Part shown: one piece after another, positions 3,117 through 12,123 of the stretch
Layout of the letters: each line of letters opens with the position of its first letter
Position numbering within the stretch: the first letter of the stretch is position 1
Virus record (IMG/VR): IMGVR_UViG_3300023179_000551
Span: 1-22,446 of that record
Direction: 5' to 3' (one strand)
DNA from: a virus
Length of the DNA stretch: 22,446 nt
The notes under the pieces: generated by a model
What the model was told of the DNA's origin: nothing
The model's database searches: none
The model's input: the letters and a program-made list of their open reading frames with translations, nothing else
Made by a program: the position numbers and the translations under genes

Positions 3117-3121
3117 AAATG

Positions 3122-6061: not shown

Positions 6062-6622
6062 ATGACAAAAAAACAACAAACGCCTGATACTATCATCAAA
6101 CAGTTTGAAAAACCACAATTTGAAATTGCAGATGTAGTATTCTTTACATGGTTAGGTTCAAAAAAATATGGTTATGTTACAAAAATTAAAAAAACTACAT
6201 GGGGTGTTATGTATACAGTTGAATCAAATAATACGCGGTATCCTTGTGGGGTTTCGATTAATGGGTATAAAACAGCGTATACAACGGGATGCATCAATGT
6301 CGATGAAACAAGATCAATTGGACAAAATGAAATTAGGATACGCATCCAAACCGGACATACAAGCACATATACAGAGCTTTTTACAGACACCCGAAGGTCA
6401 ACAATTGAAAGCAGAAGCAAGTCTGACAGTAGCAAACACGTATCTTCATCAAATCATAACTCAATTAAATCACCCCGAATTAGCAATACGAGAAAAGATG
6501 TTGTTAAATCTAGCACTAATGGAAATAATGCGGGAATTGGAAAAAAACGAAAAAATTCTGAGCTCGATATCGCAATTCAACGACAAAAAAATTTCTTAAA
6601 CGGATTCATAAAAAAAGATTAA
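6062..6622 (+). CDS. Beta-rich protein with disordered basic C-terminus (outer gene of an overlapping pair)
   Basis: A 186-residue protein. Residues about 17-90 look like a folded beta domain (FEIADVVFFTWLGSKKYGYV, TTWGVMYTVE, RYPCGVSINGYKTAYTTG). Residues about 105-165 are Ser/Thr/Asn/Lys-rich and probably disordered. The last part, ELDIAIQRQKNFLNGFIKKD, again looks like a structured helix, so the frame seems to be coding to its end. A second frame (6297-6599) lies wholly inside it and also looks like a real protein. It starts 7 bases after the previous stop. No function is recognised. A single frameshift joining the two frames is the main alternative. Confidence 0.65.
   Translation: MTKKQQTPDTIIKQFEKPQFEIADVVFFTWLGSKKYGYVTKIKKTTWGVMYTVESNNTRYPCGVSINGYKTAYTTGCINVDETRSIGQNEIRIRIQTGHTSTYTELFTDTRRSTIESRSKSDSSKHVSSSNHNSIKSPRISNTRKDVVKSSTNGNNAGIGKKRKNSELDIAIQRQKNFLNGFIKKD
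6297..6599 (+). CDS. Candidate nested helical protein in the +1 frame of the gene at 6062
   Basis: A 100-residue frame beginning MSMKQDQLDKMKLGYASKPD, with a second ATG at 6303. It lies entirely within the 6062-6622 gene. The translation is well-behaved and amphipathic (IQSFLQTPEGQQLKAEASLT, ELAIREKMLLNLALMEIMRE), unlike a typical shadow frame, while the overlapping frame is Ser-rich and disordered over most of the same bases. By eye, third-position G+C does not separate the two frames. It could be an overprinted gene, or the displaced C-terminus of the outer gene after a frameshift. Confidence 0.45.
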   Translation: MSMKQDQLDKMKLGYASKPDIQAHIQSFLQTPEGQQLKAEASLTVANTYLHQIITQLNHPELAIREKMLLNLALMEIMRELEKNEKILSSISQFNDKKIS

Positions 6623-6628
6623 TAATTG

Positions 6629-6660
6629 ATTGGATATTAAGATTGTATTTCATATTATTG
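6629..6660 (+). promoter_or_regulatory. Host-type promoter of the CAP-domain gene
   Basis: ATTG at 6629-6632, then exactly 20 bases, then TATTATTG at 6653-6660. This fits the Bacteroidetes TTTG / TAnnTTTG pattern with one mismatch in each box. The -7 box sits inside the inverted repeat ATATTA-TTG-TAATAT (6652-6666). Start codon 31 bases further on. Confidence 0.55.
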
Positions 6661-6691
6661 TAATATAATTAATCAATTAAAAATTTAAGTT

Positions 6692-7249
6692 ATGAAAAAG
6701 TTAGCATTGTTATTTAGTTTAGTAGCATTTTCCGTAAATGCACAAATTAAAGTTGGTAAATGCCAATCGTATTATGCAGATAAACAATTAGCTAAACAAT
6801 TATTTGATTTGATAAATGCGTATAGAAATAGTTTAGGCGAAGCTTCATACATTTGGGAAGAAAATTATTACGTAACTGCAAAAACGCAAAATGATTATTT
6901 AGCTGATAATGGTCTGTGGGGTCATAGAACTAATTATATGCCCGGTACTGAATTAATTGTAGCTGTTAATAATTTACAAATTACAATTAATTCCGATGTA
7001 TATTCAATGTTAGCCGATTCTTGTTTACGCCAATGGAAACATTCTGAATTTCATCACAAAATACTTAAAACTCCAATACTATCAAAATTACAAACTTCAC
7101 GTACGATAACAGTAAATAATGTAAATTTAAACGTACGTTTGTGTAAATACGGAGCAATATCAGTTAACATATTAGACTATGGTGATGTTAAACATATTTC
7201 TTGTATTTTACATTTAGGTTATTATAACGATCCATTAAAAGATATGTAA
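6692..7249 (+). CDS. Secreted CAP/SCP-domain protein
   Basis: A 185-residue protein with a signal peptide (MKKLALLFSLVAFSVNA, cleavage probably before Q18). Residues about 35-130 fit the CAP (SCP/PR-1) superfamily: LFDLINAYRNSLG, YIWEENY, then GLWGHR with H78, GTE with E87, and W115 followed by SEFHHKIL (H121/H122). These correspond to the His/Glu cleft residues of CAP proteins. Prokaryotic CAP proteins are exported and their chemistry is mostly unknown. A phage copy driven by a host-type promoter could act in the periplasm during infection, for example in superinfection exclusion; that is inference. The first residues MKKLALLF are shared with two other genes nearby. Confidence 0.75.
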   Translation: MKKLALLFSLVAFSVNAQIKVGKCQSYYADKQLAKQLFDLINAYRNSLGEASYIWEENYYVTAKTQNDYLADNGLWGHRTNYMPGTELIVAVNNLQITINSDVYSMLADSCLRQWKHSEFHHKILKTPILSKLQTSRTITVNNVNLNVRLCKYGAISVNILDYGDVKHISCILHLGYYNDPLKDM

Positions 7250-7262
7250 AAAATAATAACAG

Positions 7263-7292
7263 ATAAAATGGGATTATCCCATTTTATTTTTT
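7263..7292. terminator. Bidirectional hairpin terminator between convergent genes
   Basis: A perfect 11-base-pair stem, ATAAAATGGGA (7263-7273) with TCCCATTTTAT (7276+1 to 7287), around a TTA loop, followed by a T run on the plus strand and preceded by an A-rich stretch that serves the minus strand. It sits between the CAP gene and the minus-strand gene that ends at 7293. Confidence 0.75.
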
Positions 7293-8645
7293 TTAGTATG
7301 CTTCTAATTTTACAATTTTAAATTGTCCACCTAATGCAGTTGTAGTTGCTTTAGCTCCTATACTATTTAAATCATCTTTAGTAGTTGTTGTTGATTGATC
7401 TGCTTTTTTAATTGAAAAAATTAATCTGGCATATTGTGCTGCATCGCCACCTGTTTCTACTTTTGCTACCATAGTAGGAGTTACCCCAGCTGTATTACCA
7501 ATTGCTTTAAGTAGCGATTGGCCTCGTTGATATGCTAAAAACGCATTACCTCCAGACATCGGATCTTTTACTACACCTTCGGCATCTGCAGTTGGATCTG
7601 CAGGTACCTGATTTGGCTGTAAACCTAATGCTTTAGCAAATCCAGCTTGATCAAGTTTAACCGGACGATCATATGATGCTCCAGATTCAATTCGCATTGC
7701 TGTTATTTCACCTAATTTTTTTGCATCTTCGATTGCTTTAGTAACCTGTGGTGCTACATTAGCATCCATGGTAACTTTCAATGTTGGAAATAAATTTTTT
7801 GGTAAATCGGCTGTAGTTTCCGGGCCGGGTGTCCACAATATTTCGGATGTTTGTGTTCCTGTAGTTTTTGCACTAGCTGCTTTGTATTGTTGATTTGCAT
7901 ATATAATACAACTAGTTGAATTTACTTGTTCCGAATTAATTAAATCTAAACTTCCTGCTCCTGGAGTAGTCTTTGCATTTCCTTGGATGAAAGAACCACC
8001 TTTAATATTACCTTTGTTGTCTGCGCTATACGGAAATATATCTATTTGATTGATATATGAACCAGCTTTCTTTTTACCTGTATAGTCATCTGATGCAATA
8101 TTGCCTATGTTAAAATCATTACAATAAGTTAAAATATTAGACATATCTGAACTTTGTCCTGCATCCTGGCCCGTAACACCCGTAGTACTAACGATACCAA
8201 CTGTTAAAACCTTACCCGGATCATTTGGACTTTCATTTAATTGTATTACTGTTTCGTTACCCCATTCTGTAATTGAATCCGCGGCTTCCACTGCATCTCG
8301 TAATTTAGTTATATCTTTAAATGTACCCTTTAAAGGATTTGTTGTATTATATTGTACAATAGCTTTACTAGAAAATGCAATCCATGCTGCGGCTATATCA
8401 ACTGTCGTTGTTGAAAAACTTGCACCATATTTTGTCAATAAACTTTTTATTGTCTGAACACTTGTAGTAAATTTTGTACCCCAATTTTTTGAATCATTTA
8501 TAAACGAATCAATTACTGAATTTGGATTTTTAACAGCAGCCGGTGCCCCTAATGCTTCATTTAATAATTTTCTAATTTGATGTTCATTTAAATTTTTAGT
8601 TCCAAAACGTGCCATGTTTTGAGCTAATAATCGTTCTAAATTCAT
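7293..8645 (-). CDS. Putative virion protein with shared N-terminal motif and OmpA-like C-terminal domain
   Basis: A 450-residue protein reading leftwards. The N-terminus MNLERLLAQNMARFGTKNLN shares the LL-x-(E/Q)NM-x-RFG(T/S)KNL motif with the two minus-strand genes at 9302 and 10371. The middle (about 45-280) is Ser/Thr/Gly-rich with no clear motif. Residues about 285-415 have the order of an OmpA-like domain: strand FPTLKVTMDANV, helix VTKAIEDAKK, strand EITAMRIESGAS, then GGNAFLAYQRGQSLLKAI and a last strand VAKVETGGDAAQYARLIF. OmpA-like domains bind peptidoglycan, but the usual binding Asp/Arg are not clearly kept. A late-type box lies 53 bases upstream. A structural role is inferred from the late-type promoter and the shared motif. 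Confidence 0.65.
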   Translation of the reverse strand: MNLERLLAQNMARFGTKNLNEHQIRKLLNEALGAPAAVKNPNSVIDSFINDSKNWGTKFTTSVQTIKSLLTKYGASFSTTTVDIAAAWIAFSSKAIVQYNTTNPLKGTFKDITKLRDAVEAADSITEWGNETVIQLNESPNDPGKVLTVGIVSTTGVTGQDAGQSSDMSNILTYCNDFNIGNIASDDYTGKKKAGSYINQIDIFPYSADNKGNIKGGSFIQGNAKTTPGAGSLDLINSEQVNSTSCIIYANQQYKAASAKTTGTQTSEILWTPGPETTADLPKNLFPTLKVTMDANVAPQVTKAIEDAKKLGEITAMRIESGASYDRPVKLDQAGFAKALGLQPNQVPADPTADAEGVVKDPMSGGNAFLAYQRGQSLLKAIGNTAGVTPTMVAKVETGGDAAQYARLIFSIKKADQSTTTTKDDLNSIGAKATTTALGGQFKIVKLEAY

Positions 8646-8698
8646 GTTTTTTTATTCCTTTATGGTTTTTAATATATATTTCAATGTTACAATTGCAA

Positions 8699-8708
8699 TA
8701 ATAAATAT
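8699..8708 (-). promoter_or_regulatory. Late-type promoter box (variant ATATTTATTA), leftward
   Basis: The minus strand reads ATATTTATTA 53 bases before the ATG at 8645, preceded by a T run and G-T-A-T as at the other two minus-strand copies. An AAAGGAATA ribosome binding site lies about 9 bases before the start codon. Confidence 0.45.
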
Positions 8709-8730
8709 CATACAAAAAAAAATAACGTTA

Positions 8731-8762
8731 TTTGGATTTATAAAAACATTTTCATATTATTG
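8731..8762 (+). promoter_or_regulatory. Host-type promoter of the secreted-protein gene at 8791
   Basis: TTTG at 8731-8734, exactly 20 bases, then TATTATTG at 8755-8762: the best match in the window to the Bacteroidetes consensus. The inverted repeat ATATTA-TTG-TAATAT spans 8754-8768 and could be an operator over the -7 box. The leader has no Shine-Dalgarno sequence. Confidence 0.6.
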
Positions 8763-8790
8763 TAATATAAACCAATTAAAAATTTAAGTT

Positions 8791-9252
8791 ATGAAAAAGT
8801 TAGCATTGTTATTTATGTTGATATACAACGTTATTATATCTCAAACTGTTCCTAAAAGTTTAAAAATTGGATTTACTAAATTTTTGGAATTGCATAATTA
8901 TTCCAATATTGAACTTGATAATGCATTGTCAAATCCGGATACTATATTATATAAACCTTCTACATCATGTTATGTTATAGATTTTGAACACAATCAAATT
9001 TTGCTCTATCAAAAAGATTCTTTAGTTGCACAGGCACCAATTGTTTCTATTCATTTCAATGTTGCTGCACATGATTTAAAATTTGAAAATTGGGATTTTG
9101 TTATTAAATTGCAAGATTATGCTAATGATACAGAAATTCGAATTAACATGCAACACAATACATTTATTTATTCATATGTATTTGATATCAAATCAATTGG
9201 ATATTATGAACGTATAACAGCGATATCGCGAGATGTAGTATTTATTCCGTAA
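8791..9252 (+). CDS. Secreted protein of unknown function (MKKLALLF family)
   Basis: A 153-residue protein with a signal peptide (MKKLALLFMLIYNVIISQ, probably cut before T19, a typical Bacteroidetes SQ end). The mature part is beta-rich and has a central block SCYVIDFEHNQILLYQKDSL that resembles CKYVINTSDYTVDFYRNSVL in the gene at 9952; the two are probably distant paralogues. No catalytic motif is visible. It is expected in the periplasm. Host-type promoter upstream, hairpin terminator downstream, so it is a one-gene unit. Confidence 0.7.
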   Translation: MKKLALLFMLIYNVIISQTVPKSLKIGFTKFLELHNYSNIELDNALSNPDTILYKPSTSCYVIDFEHNQILLYQKDSLVAQAPIVSIHFNVAAHDLKFENWDFVIKLQDYANDTEIRINMQHNTFIYSYVFDIKSIGYYERITAISRDVVFIP

Positions 9253-9262
9253 TAATAGTAAA

Positions 9263-9298
9263 AATGGGGGCATTGCCCCCATTACATGTTTATTTTTT
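9263..9298. terminator. Hairpin terminator between convergent genes
   Basis: A perfect stem AATGGGGGC (9263-9271) with GCCCCCATT (9275-9283), loop ATT, followed by a T-rich stretch. It is 11 bases after the stop of the plus-strand gene and 19 bases before the end of the minus-strand gene, so it can serve both. Confidence 0.75.
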
Positions 9299-9301
9299 AT
9301 T

Positions 9302-9832
9302 CTATTTTGGTGCTGTACTTTGAAATGCCGTTACGGTAAGTGAACCAATATATTCTGATACAGTTGTTTTTGCATTTGGATCATTGGATTTTGGTTTAAC
9401 CAATACTATCATATAGTTAGGATCTTTAGAAAATAAGTTTGATCCTTTTCCAATCATTGGACTCACAATGCTACGAAATTTTGCTTCATCTTGTCCGGTA
9501 ATTTTATTTAACCATATATTTCCAGTAATTGTTTGTGCAGTTGCATCAAGTTTTAATCCATCATATGAAGTAATAGGAATTCCTGCCAATGTTATACTTC
9601 GAATAAAACCTGAATAATCTGTTGCTGCATTTTTACCTAAACCTGATATCGTAAATGAAGCTTTACCTGTCATATCAATTCCACCTTTATTTGTTGGAAG
9701 ACTTAATGCCATTGGAAATGCATATGTAAAATCTTCCATCAATCGCTGCAAATTTTGTTTTTCTGATTTGGTTAAATTTTTGGATCCAAAACGAATCATG
9801 TTTTCAGCTAATATGTTTTGTAGTTTAATCAT
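9302..9832 (-). CDS. Putative virion protein with shared N-terminal motif
   Basis: A 176-residue protein reading leftwards. I chose the ATG at 9832 because it has AAAAAGGATACAA directly upstream and restores the shared N-terminus MIKLQNILAENMIRFGSKNL; the frame continues open to 9901, but that extension covers the promoter region. The mature part is beta-rich with Gly/Thr/Ser (KASFTISGLGKN, SITLAGIPITSYDGL, VSEYIGSLTVTAF) and no catalytic motif. An exact late-type box lies 17 bases before the start. Virion or internal-head protein is inference. Confidence 0.7.
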   Translation of the reverse strand: MIKLQNILAENMIRFGSKNLTKSEKQNLQRLMEDFTYAFPMALSLPTNKGGIDMTGKASFTISGLGKNAATDYSGFIRSITLAGIPITSYDGLKLDATAQTITGNIWLNKITGQDEAKFRSIVSPMIGKGSNLFSKDPNYMIVLVKPKSNDPNAKTTVSEYIGSLTVTAFQSTAPK

Positions 9833-9849
9833 TTGTATCCTTTTTCTAC

Positions 9850-9859
9850 ATATAAATAT
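9850..9859 (-). promoter_or_regulatory. Late-type promoter box ATATTTATAT, leftward
   Basis: The minus strand reads ATATTTATAT exactly, 17 bases before the ATG at 9832 and followed by the ribosome binding site AAAAAGGAT. Same arrangement as the plus-strand late genes. Confidence 0.55.
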
Positions 9860-9887
9860 TACACAAAAAAAAAAATACAAAAAACAA

Positions 9888-9919
9888 TTTGGATATATCA
9901 AACTAATTTCATATTATTT
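9888..9919 (+). promoter_or_regulatory. Host-type promoter of the secreted-protein gene at 9952
   Basis: TTTG at 9888-9891, exactly 20 bases, then TATTATTT at 9912-9919. The inverted repeat ATATTA-TTT-TAATAT (9911-9925) overlaps the -7 box. Confidence 0.55.
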
Positions 9920-9951
9920 TAATATAATTAACCAGTTAAAAAATTAAAATC

Positions 9952-10365
9952 ATGAAAAAGTTAGCCTTGTTATTTGCATTTGGTTTAAATGTTATTTGTT
10001 TTTCTCAAACAATTATAATTCAAGTCGATGAAATACAATCATTTTATGGTGATACGTCGCAAAATATAAATGAAATTTTCAATAACGTAAGTTACATTAC
10101 CCAACCCGAGTCTAAAAATTGTAAGTATGTAATTAATACTTCTGATTATACGGTGGATTTTTATCGCAATAGCGTATTACAAACTACAGAAGCTATAGAA
10201 ATTGAATTCGTTAATAATCATATGATTGTACGGATACTTGAATTCGGTTTCAACATAGGACTCATAATAGATTTTAACGTCGAATCCGTAGTTTTTTATG
10301 ATATACAACCATCTTTTGTAGAATACATGAAATTTACAAAATTTGAAATTGTAAAATCAAATTAA
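9952..10365 (+). CDS. Secreted protein of unknown function (MKKLALLF family)
   Basis: A 137-residue protein with a signal peptide (MKKLALLFAFGLNVICFSQ, probably cut before T20). The mature part is beta-rich (TIIIQVDEIQSFYG, IEIEFVNNHMIVRILEF, SVVFYDIQPSFVEY). It is probably a distant paralogue of the gene at 8791, judged from the aligned block around Cys and the following strand pair. No enzyme motif. Expected in the periplasm or outer envelope. Host-type promoter upstream. Its terminator lies inside the 3' end of the facing gene. Confidence 0.7.
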   Translation: MKKLALLFAFGLNVICFSQTIIIQVDEIQSFYGDTSQNINEIFNNVSYITQPESKNCKYVINTSDYTVDFYRNSVLQTTEAIEIEFVNNHMIVRILEFGFNIGLIIDFNVESVVFYDIQPSFVEYMKFTKFEIVKSN

Positions 10366-10370
10366 TAAAT

Positions 10371-10982
10371 TTATGGTTTTACCGTCGGCCGTGCGCCGGC
10401 TTTTTTCAAATGTGTACCTACTGCTTCGATTGCTGCATTATATGCTTGATATTTCGGAATATTGTCTGTAGTTAAATATTGATTTAATACAGCACAAGAA
10501 TTGCCTTCGGAAAATTTAGTCGTCGCATTGAATGTAGAATTAATTAATGGAGTACATGACACCCATTGTCGAGAAATAGTTGGGTTTTTACTAGCAGCCG
10601 CATTTATCTTTCTTACTGCTTCTAGATAAGTTACTTTGCCCTTGGTTACATCATTTGGCCACAGAAACGTTCTAGGCATCACAGCATATCCACCAATCGT
10701 CCAGTGTGTTTGTGTTTGTTCAAGTTTTGGGGTTGTGACAAGATCTGGATACAATGCATTAGCCGTTTTAGCAATATTACCTAATAAAGTTTGTAACGTA
10801 TTTATCATTTCGCTCGATTTCGGATCCGGATTTTGTTCCATTAGTTGATATTTAACATGTTCATGCAAACCATGTTGGTTGATGGTTTCCATGATTGATT
10901 TAAGTATTAATTTTTTTTGTGCTGCTTCGGATAAATTTTTGGTACCAAAACGAAGCATGTTTTCTGAAAGTAAGTTTTTCAT
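10371..10982 (-). CDS. Putative virion protein with shared N-terminal motif
   Basis: A 203-residue protein reading leftwards with the cleanest copy of the shared N-terminus: MKNLLSENMLRFGTKNLSE. A helical segment follows (AAQKKLILKSIMETINQHGL), then an alpha/beta body with Trp/Pro-rich parts (THWTIGGYAVMPRTFLWPND) and two Cys (WVSCTPL, SCAVLNQ). No catalytic motif. A late-type box variant lies 38 bases upstream. Role as a virion or internal-head protein is inferred from the motif and promoter. Confidence 0.7.
   Translation of the reverse strand: MKNLLSENMLRFGTKNLSEAAQKKLILKSIMETINQHGLHEHVKYQLMEQNPDPKSSEMINTLQTLLGNIAKTANALYPDLVTTPKLEQTQTHWTIGGYAVMPRTFLWPNDVTKGKVTYLEAVRKINAAASKNPTISRQWVSCTPLINSTFNATTKFSEGNSCAVLNQYLTTDNIPKYQAYNAAIEAVGTHLKKAGARPTVKP
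10384..10406 (+). terminator. Rightward terminator embedded in the facing gene's 3' coding end
   Basis: Stem GTCGGC (10384-10389) with GCCGGC (10395-10400), one G-U pair, loop CGTGC, followed by six T. It lies 19 bases after the stop of the plus-strand gene but inside the last codons of the minus-strand gene (encoding GARPT). It is the most G+C-rich spot in the neighbourhood. Confidence 0.65.
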
Positions 10983-11020
10983 TTTTTTGTATCTTTTTTT
11001 TTGGGTTATCTTGTTAACAA

Positions 11021-11030
11021 TAATAAATAT
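11021..11030 (-). promoter_or_regulatory. Late-type promoter box (variant ATATTTATTA), leftward
   Basis: The minus strand reads TTTTTTGTGTAATATTTATT here, 38 bases before the ATG at 10982. The same T run, GTGTA/GTATG spacer and box occur at the other two minus-strand genes. Confidence 0.45.
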
Positions 11031-11053
11031 TACACAAAAAAAAAATAATGTTA

Positions 11054-11085
11054 TTTGGATTTTTTACTTTTTTTACATAATATAA
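11054..11085 (+). promoter_or_regulatory. Host-type promoter of the UV endonuclease gene
   Basis: TTTG at 11054-11057, exactly 20 bases, then TAATATAA at 11078-11085. The -33 context TTATTTGGAT is identical to that at 8791. The start codon follows only 12 bases after the -7 box, so the transcript would have almost no leader. Confidence 0.5.
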
Positions 11086-11097
11086 AATAAAACATAT

Positions 11098-12123
11098 ATG
11101 ATTCGTTTCGGTTATGCTTGTATCAACATGGAGTTATCCGCGCGTGGTATTCGTACCGGCCGTGCCATGATTGATCGCAAATTCAAGCTTGGTGGCTTAC
11201 GGCTTGCATCTGACATTGCACTTGCCAATGCCCGCGATTTACTTGCTATTCTGCAATGGAATGAAGCACATGGCATACGATTGTTTCGGTTAGGCTCCGA
11301 GCTCTTTCCACGTTGGAATCATTACGAATTTGCTGATTTGCCTGACATTGATCTTATTGTGCAGCATTTACGTTCTGCAGGTGATTATGCTCGCGACCAT
11401 GGGCATCGCATCACAACGCATCCTGGCCCATTTCATATTCTTGGTAGTCCTGATGCTGTAGTTGTTGATAATTCTATCATTGGTCTTGAACGACATTCTG
11501 AGCTCTTTGATATGATGGGCTTTGCACCTAGCTTTGAAAACAAGATCAATATTCATGTTGGTGCTACTTACAATGATAAGCCTGGTACTATTATGCGATG
11601 GCTGCATAACTATGATCGTTTATCAGATTCTTGCAAGGCGCGTTTGGTTATTGAGAATGATGATAAAGCTTCCATGTATTCGGTGCGCGAGTTGTATGAG
11701 ATGTTGCATGCTGAAATTGCTATACCAATTACGTTTGATTATTGGCATCACACTTTCAATACTGGTGACTTGTCTGAACAAGAAGCATTCTTTATGGCTC
11801 GTGAAACTTGGCAACGCCATGGCGTTACTCAATGTACGCATTACAGTGAGTCCCGTCGACGTGAAGCACAAATTCTCATTGAACGTATGTTTGCACATCA
11901 TAATATCGATATTGTTGATTTGCCCAAATGGCCAACGTTCCACAAACAATACAAAGAATTTACCAAAATCAAAGAACAAGCTCATGCTGATTACATTACA
12001 CGGCTCCCAGATACGTACGGTGTAGCTGATCTCGATGTTATGGTCGAAGCAAAAGCTAAAGAACAAGCATTGCTCAATTTAAACGTTGAATGTTGTCAAA
12101 ACGCTCAATTAATTTTAGAATAA
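11098..12123 (+). CDS. uvsE: UV-damage endonuclease (UvdE/UvsE)
   Basis: A 341-residue TIM-barrel repair enzyme that nicks DNA 5' of UV photoproducts. The N-terminus MIRFGYACINMEL and the C-terminal block DVMVEAKAKEQAL are family hallmarks. The metal ligands known from the Thermus enzyme are all present: H108 (THPG), H153 (IHVGA), E186 (IENDD), D214 and H217 (FDYWHH), H248 (THYSES) and E317 (VEAK); the Lys of AKAKEQ is kept. Codon use is visibly richer in G+C (many GCC, CGT, GGC, GAG) than in flanking genes, a sign of acquisition from another source. It stands alone, with a host-type promoter and a 45-base gap to the next gene. Length is normal to slightly long for the family. Confidence 0.93.
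   Translation: MIRFGYACINMELSARGIRTGRAMIDRKFKLGGLRLASDIALANARDLLAILQWNEAHGIRLFRLGSELFPRWNHYEFADLPDIDLIVQHLRSAGDYARDHGHRITTHPGPFHILGSPDAVVVDNSIIGLERHSELFDMMGFAPSFENKINIHVGATYNDKPGTIMRWLHNYDRLSDSCKARLVIENDDKASMYSVRELYEMLHAEIAIPITFDYWHHTFNTGDLSEQEAFFMARETWQRHGVTQCTHYSESRRREAQILIERMFAHHNIDIVDLPKWPTFHKQYKEFTKIKEQAHADYITRLPDTYGVADLDVMVEAKAKEQALLNLNVECCQNAQLILE

Follow-up and report, generated by a model that had tools for sequence, protein, structure and literature searches.

Conserved ends and variable bodies in a gene island adjacent to UvdE of a contractile-tailed phage

The DNA analyzed here, the complete IMG/VR record IMGVR_UViG_3300023179_000551 with 22,446 bases (“the window”), stems from a contractile-tailed phage, in which a glucosaminidase-type lysin, a baseplate wedge protein, and the UV endonuclease UvdE are recognizable. 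An island of convergent gene pairs, separated from each other by divergent gaps, is located next to UvdE (Table 1). Leftward genes with an N-terminal tag were designated “T” and rightward genes with a signal peptide “S.” Three T genes of the window carry LxENMxRFG[TS]KNLxE at their N terminus and three S genes begin with a MKKLALLF signal peptide, for which the chance expectation is none. A preceding sequence-only reading had interpreted the conserved ends and differing bodies of these genes as a platform for swapping gene bodies; its coordinates, the three tags, and the three MKKLALLF starts were all correct when the window was read again. The open reading frame listed at 9302 to 9901 most likely starts with the ATG ending at 9832 rather than with the upstream TTG.

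TABLE 1 Features of the island and of its borders in the window
Feature	Position	Strand	Evidence or remark
Left island border, conserved gene	6062..6622	+	Borders the island in related loci too
Right half-cassette: TTGGAT-type promoter and leader ahead of the first S gene	6623..6691	+	Gap alignment with 8646-8790 and 9833-9951
S gene 1: signal peptide MKKLALLFSLVAFSVNAQ, CAP-like body, 185 aa	6692..7249	+	Pfam CAP
Terminator-like hairpin where S1 and T1 converge	7250..7292	.	−13.4 kcal/mol, z −4.27
T gene 1: tag MNLERLLAQNMARFGTKNLNE, 450 aa, C-terminal part weakly OmpA/MotB-like	7293..8645	-	Tag logo; AlphaFold2, Foldseek
Divergent cassette 1: leftward late-type box ~8709, A-tract, TTTGGAT 8731, rightward promoter and leader	8646..8790	.	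Gap alignment
S gene 2 (153 aa): all-beta body behind a MKKLALLF signal peptide	8791..9252	+	AlphaFold2; family S0
Terminator-like hairpin between S2 and T2	9253..9301	.	z −3.04 on 9250-9302
T gene 2: tag MIKLQNILAENMIRFGSKNL, 176 aa, ATG start at 9832	9302..9832	-	
Divergent cassette 2: leftward late-type box ~9860, A-tract, TTTGGAT 9888	9833..9951	.	Gap alignment
S gene 3 (137 aa): MKKLALLF signal peptide; superfamily shared with S gene 2	9952..10365	+	
T gene 3: extended tag MKNLLSENMLRFGTKNLSEAAQ...QLMEQ, 203 aa	10371..10982	-	Leader identity to other T proteins
Third cassette: T-side left half and right half reading into UvdE	10983..11097	.	Comparison with L155 gap
UvdE UV endonuclease, conserved right island border	11098..12123	+	PF03851 E 1.5e-57

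The gaps between the units

Similarity of the gaps was scored against dinucleotide shuffles. The alignment score was 74 for gaps 8646-8790 and 9833-9951 (shuffles 25.9 ± 4.3), 67 for 6623-6691 and 8646-8790 (22.9 ± 3.8, z 11.5), 64 for 6623-6691 and 9833-9951 (20.9 ± 3.5, z 12.3), 67 for 8646-8790 and 10983-11097 (26.1 ± 4.4), and 46 for 9833-9951 and 10983-11097 (24.2 ± 3.7), so that related gap pairs were at z values of 6 to 12 over the shuffles. The pair 6623-6691 and 10983-11097, which was expected to consist of unrelated halves, had a chance-level similarity (z −0.9). The claim that the gaps are near-copies of each other beyond chance for AT-rich DNA was borne out by these scores, as was the half-and-half pattern, in which only the right half is retained ahead of position 6692 and chiefly the left half ahead of UvdE.

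The motif TTGGA[TA] was present upstream of 77% of the S genes and of UvdE. TTTGGAT plus a TATATTA-like box forms a promoter class that was also found before gene 4242 and before UvdE, and part of the similarity of the gaps is therefore a shared promoter. The arrangement TTTG-N20-TATTATTG in the cassettes resembles the Bacteroidota promoter TTTG...TAnnTTTG. Together with the S signal peptides, most of which end with AQ or SQ, this promoter type suggests a Bacteroidota host. By the baseplate protein, the nearest isolates are a phage of Microcystis, Mel-JY01 (54%), and one of Flavobacterium, immuto (42%), so that this host is a tentative assignment. On the T side, ATATTTAT occurred in sense orientation upstream of 67% of the T genes and in antisense orientation upstream of 4%. 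The proposed leftward late box is (G/A)ATATTTAT read in the leftward sense, but it is not leftward-only: it also precedes several plus-strand genes of the window (boxes at 3121, 12124, 14556, 16866, and 19730), and virion genes in the window are among those that have it upstream. By analogy with T4, the T genes would be expressed late and the S genes earlier.

The inverted repeats in the cassettes were considered as terminators. Their RNA did not fold better than shuffled sequences (z −0.30, +0.87, and −0.41), and they are therefore not terminators; an Rfam search gave no match. Terminator-like hairpins followed by U-rich sequence were located instead at convergent ends (7250-7292, z −4.3; 9250-9302, z −3.0), in two of the three pairs of the window between the S and the T gene, so that these pairs look like self-contained expression units.

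Probable exchange of bodies and inheritance of pairs

A set of 80 related viral loci was obtained via UvdE; individual loci are given as L-numbers. The island of these loci, small and hypervariable in this large group of uncultivated T4-like phages, is situated between a conserved gene of the 6062-6622 type and UvdE and contains mostly one to three convergent pairs of a rightward S and a leftward T gene. Each of the 101 tagged genes runs against the direction of UvdE, and 87 of the 90 S genes share its strand; some T genes had no S neighbor. At the left end of the island, L149 (893-4730), L150 (2296-6052), and L162 (651-4029) contain large leftward genes for proteins of 500 to 760 aa, which have different leaders ending with xxEQ, for instance, IISEQDP. 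The content of the island differed between phages with 94 to 96% identical UvdE, and neither the set of bodies nor their order is maintained among related phages, in agreement with the predicted swapping of bodies.

Individual junctions are visible between these loci. The T genes adjoining UvdE in L146 and L148 show 87 to 100% identity in the 150 nt upstream and almost as much across the tag, and their identity is at chance level beyond about codon 20, while the UvdE of each of them is 95 to 96% identical to that of the window. The T genes of L152 and L157 diverge near codon 50, where a long form of the tag ends, and the S genes of L216 and L222 are identical for 56 nt through the NAQ end of the signal peptide, followed by chance-level similarity. 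Where T genes had similar leaders but dissimilar bodies (391 pairs), breakpoints were most frequent at codons 16 to 20, with scatter; in this systematic survey, only 47% of the breakpoints in T and 53% of those in S were located at most 15 nt from a shared site. The predicted kind of breakpoint, at the end of the signal-peptide or RFGTKNL codons, was thus found in individual cases and in the mode of the T genes, and identity often ceased close to the end of the tag or signal peptide, although the breakpoints of all pairs together scatter.

The sole gap between a T gene and UvdE in L155 is composed of the left half of the window gap 9833-9951 and the right half of the window gap 10983-11097, the latter being near-identical in both phages. 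This hybrid suggests that the window represents an L155-like island with an extra pair, S 9952 and T 10371, inserted inside the core of the cassette; loss of this pair from the L155 lineage is an equivalent alternative. The S leaders were more similar within a phage (0.766) than between phages (0.676), even on different bodies, a value above all 2,000 permutations. Body turnover, junctions, and the hybrid gap support recombination between shared flanks. The tag and the signal peptide look like functional address signals, and selection on the ends therefore also contributes.

Concerning the bodies, S gene 1 matched Pfam CAP (PF00188) with an E value of 8.5e-4 and 20.6 bits, just under the gathering score of 21.1. 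A CAP match was found in 17 of 61 S proteins, with E values of relatives down to 2.9e-15. The AlphaFold2 model of S gene 2 was all-beta (pLDDT 89.6). A few S-position genes, among the rightward genes of L201 and L210 and the S proteins of one alignment, are not ordinary signal-peptide proteins; one S-position gene had a rhomboid match, and MDYKKIHDLIIERA...RHHIVPKCMGG at an S position reads like an HNH nuclease. The comparison of 93 T proteins with Pfam, PHROGs, and PADLOC yielded only scattered single matches, of which the PADLOC ones were weak and treated as chance. Single T relatives matched LysM, OmpA, and endolysin models. A region of T gene 1 resembles OmpA/MotB peptidoglycan-binding domains below threshold (best Foldseek E value, 0.0095); the AlphaFold2 model of this protein is poor overall (pLDDT 59), and its OmpA-like reading therefore rests on one region plus sub-threshold Foldseek matches. 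These OmpA-like, LysM, and endolysin matches are hints that T bodies may act at the cell envelope. When individual bodies of the window were searched for directly, no relatives were found, with a tool of limited reach, as the UvdE loci do hold such relatives; the result is consistent with rapid turnover as well as with these limits.

Without any exchange, the units might be tandem duplicates of one ancestral S and T pair, with bodies that diverged fast and promoters and leaders held by selection. S genes 2 and 3 of the window do belong to one superfamily, and leaders that probably are functional signals would be conserved anyway. The CAP-like S1 and the all-beta S0 are, on the other hand, different kinds of bodies, near-identical upstream DNA and tags next to chance-level bodies in L146 and L148 are hard to reach by gradual divergence, and the L155 gap is a hybrid of two half-gaps of the window. 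Descent by duplication alone is quite improbable on this basis.

Of 65 non-redundant pairs, 32 of the 36 same-T combinations shared the S family, compared to 5.9 ± 2.3 after shuffling. CAP-like S proteins were combined with T proteins of at least 400 aa in 14 of 14 cases and all-beta S0 proteins with T proteins of less than 400 aa in 22 of 22 cases (P 2.6e-10). Co-inheritance and class matching together show that the pair is the inherited unit. The bodies are swapped as the sequence-only reading had it, but the unit is mostly the convergent pair instead of one gene body. At the level of the sequences, this inheritance speaks for a unit, not for an interaction of S with T. Accordingly, T could be packaged cargo and S an unrelated accessory gene, held together by physical linkage only. 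A convergent pair bounded by cassettes would travel jointly anyway, some T genes lack an S gene, and tagged genes of the RRFG type elsewhere are mostly found in same-strand runs that lack S partners. The strictness of the class matching argues against linkage as the sole reason, and the OmpA-like, LysM, and endolysin matches among T point weakly to the compartment in which S would act. Linkage alone is a serious contender, with a chance somewhat short of even.

The N-terminal tag and predicted packaging of the T proteins

The tag was searched with a DNA pattern for NMxRFGTKN, which includes neither E of the two L-x-E sites, and at least 119 matching stretches were found in IMG/VR. Among 84,980 bacterial and archaeal species genomes, it was present in only two contigs, both of bacterial metagenome-assembled genomes, so that the tag is not a host signal. 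A tblastn search against isolated phages gave no match, although such a short query may fail for technical reasons. The logo of 184 distinct proteins was K-N-[IL]-L-[AS]-E-N-[ML]-x-R-F-G-T-K-N-L-x-E, at which point conservation ends. These proteins represent about 90 body families, otherwise unrelated, and the tag is nearly always N-terminal. A second class of tagged genes with ENMRRFGTKNL, mostly below 160 aa (L097, L102, L029, and other pattern loci), forms same-strand runs mostly without secreted partners.

The tag opens and closes with L/I-x-E. The L and E at −6/−4 and +6/+8 are nearly fixed and the residue in between is variable. In 51 of 57 body-family representatives, one per family and with E unselected, E was at +8, compared to a background of 5.7%, and conservation dropped from 2.98 bits at this E to 1.25 bits at the following residue. 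The long form of about 50 residues, ending with RRRLMEQ or similar, is present on T gene 3 and many relatives; the first approximately 50 aa of T gene 3 are 76 to 80% identical to several T proteins, the remainder of which does not align. Untagged opposite-strand island genes often carry another short leader such as MIKLKxLLxEQ. Of the 124 island proteins on the T strand, 118 contained the motif [LI]xE[QNASG] within residues 4 to 65, among them 38 of the 43 untagged ones, compared to 10 of 76 S proteins and 217 of 718 other genes. In the T bodies, L-x-E was not enriched, with a slight depletion (z −1.4, not significant alone), and other genes showed an excess. As a side observation, three proteins of Flavobacterium phage immuto (MW353176.1, L233; 1803, 24977, and 25470) have leaders resembling a capsid-targeting sequence (CTS), for instance, MIKLIDLLTES.

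L/I-X-E is the motif of the T4 prohead protease gp21, and the first 10 residues of IPIII are enough for packaging (PMC9026906). As a control, T4 ipII and ipIII share MKTYQEFIAEA with the sole [LI]xE at residue 10, and ipI contains its sole one at residue 19. Of 19 long tagged contigs, 12 contained gp21 and 11 contained gp23; gp21 was additionally present in 3 further contigs. In the head clusters of L135, L136, and L139, a neighbor of gp21 has a start resembling MMNSLKKLYRDFFGLTE followed by variable sequence, as expected of a gp21 substrate, and the gp21-type protease of these clusters has LTE near its own N terminus.

The tag might alternatively be another conserved N-terminal signal, used by a phage-specific chaperone, for membrane recruitment, or in translation control. 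The RFGTKN core between the L-x-E sites is indeed far more conserved than the L-x-E reading needs. This alternative is nevertheless unlikely: L-x-E is placed exactly where conservation ends, most untagged T-position genes have an N-terminal L-x-E too, the genes possess a late-type promoter box, and relatives contain gp21. Judged from these motifs and gene contents, the T proteins are probably capsid-targeted, probably injected analogues of the T4 internal proteins.

Together, these data make it quite likely that the island is a cassette array exchanging effector pairs, with T capsid-targeted, cleaved, and injected, and S exported, acting with or against its cognate T. The support on the sequence level comprises conserved ends, variable bodies, junctions, pair inheritance, L-x-E sites, and gp21 and gp23 in relatives; we infer the timing, cleavage, packaging, injection, any S-T interaction, and the role of S. 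One unit would be a convergent pair, in which S with its Sec signal peptide is read from the TTTGGAT-type promoter and T with a putative capsid-targeting propeptide from the late-type box that virion genes also carry. Neighboring units would meet in the divergent cassette, composed of T leader, late box, A-tract, TTTGGAT, and S leader. This cassette is near-identical between units and phages, which makes homologous recombination possible there or in the leader codons, and such an event could introduce new S and T pairs with reading frame and promoter already fitting. T may then be made late and bound into the prohead core by its tag LxENMxRFGTKNLxE, a gp21-type protease would cut it after L-x-E, and the cut T might enter the head together with the DNA and be carried into the next host, like the T4 internal proteins. 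The infected cell would export S, which could act with or against its cognate T.

Several observations weigh against this model. The window is a 22-kb fragment without head genes. The tag is not homologous to the T4 CTS (MKTYQEFIAE) and has only the (L/I)xE pattern in common with it, and a scan of the genomes of Mel-JY01 and immuto with the DNA pattern found no tag, although both phages have gp21. T leaders from one phage were no more alike than those from different phages. Protein conservation would also end at the same point under selection on the tag alone, and linkage alone gives pair inheritance even if S and T never interact. Finally, the counts were drawn from related phages, with redundancy lowered but not eliminated.

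A more specific version of the cassette-array model would treat S and T as cognate pairs in phage-phage or phage-host conflict. The virion may deliver T to the envelope or cytoplasm of the next cell, S may be an early, exported protein that gives specific protection against its own T or cooperates with it, and whole pairs may be traded via the divergent cassette. This version is tentative and rather doubtful.

Implications and comparison with known systems

If the cassette-array model is true, one short peptide motif marks predicted injected proteins of uncultivated T4-like phages in very large number; hundreds of them could be found by simple means, and most have no recognizable family. The T4 internal proteins are injected, and each of the three blocks a different GmrSD restriction enzyme (PMC12373910), so that the T proteins may be expected to be delivered effectors of many kinds and their set a source of new counter-defense or envelope-acting proteins. 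The tag is a candidate CTS outside the enteric T4 phages. Fixed address labels with interchangeable bodies would let phages trade injected proteins; the junctions make such cassette-driven shuffling directly visible, and the S-T pairing poses a new question.

Two phage systems with proteins inside the head can be compared. T4 IPI, IPII, and IPIII with their CTS have the same organization of a short shared N-terminal leader ending with (L/I)xE, unrelated bodies, and gp21 (PMC9026906, PMC3012670). The tag described here is, in contrast, longer and more conserved, contains two L-x-E sites, is attached to many more body families, and belongs to proteins that are paired with convergent Sec-signal genes. 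Proximity to a UV-repair endonuclease gene is seen in both cases: T4 ipII and ipIII adjoin denV (NC_000866, 64939-66415), and the island adjoins UvdE, which is a different enzyme. The ejection proteins of SPN3US and phiKZ (PMC5694885) are likewise located in the inner head and have N-terminal propeptides in common, each with several cleavage sites, but these propeptides are mostly longer than 100 residues and cleaved at A/S-x-E, compared to about 20 or 50 residues and L/I-x-E here.

On the side of S, T4 Spackle acts in superinfection exclusion (PMC7677548) as an early periplasmic protein that blocks a virion-borne protein, which would be the position of S if the pairs served exclusion. The S families are CAP-like or all-beta, and the likeness is one of role only, as a sequence relation was not looked for.

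With respect to the exchange, PeSL are mobile regulatory cassettes in T4-type phages (Arbiol 2010 and Comeau 2014, as cited in PMC4503421). They similarly are repeated regulatory DNA between variable genes that offers homology for shuffling. The cassette here differs from them in being divergent with two promoters, in a homology that extends into the coding leaders, and in the absence of a significant stem-loop at the promoter, with hairpins at the convergent ends instead. The proposed array would work like the T4 internal-protein loci and PeSL shuffling, but differs from them in the sequence of the tag, the divergent cassette that reaches into the coding leaders, and the secreted partners.

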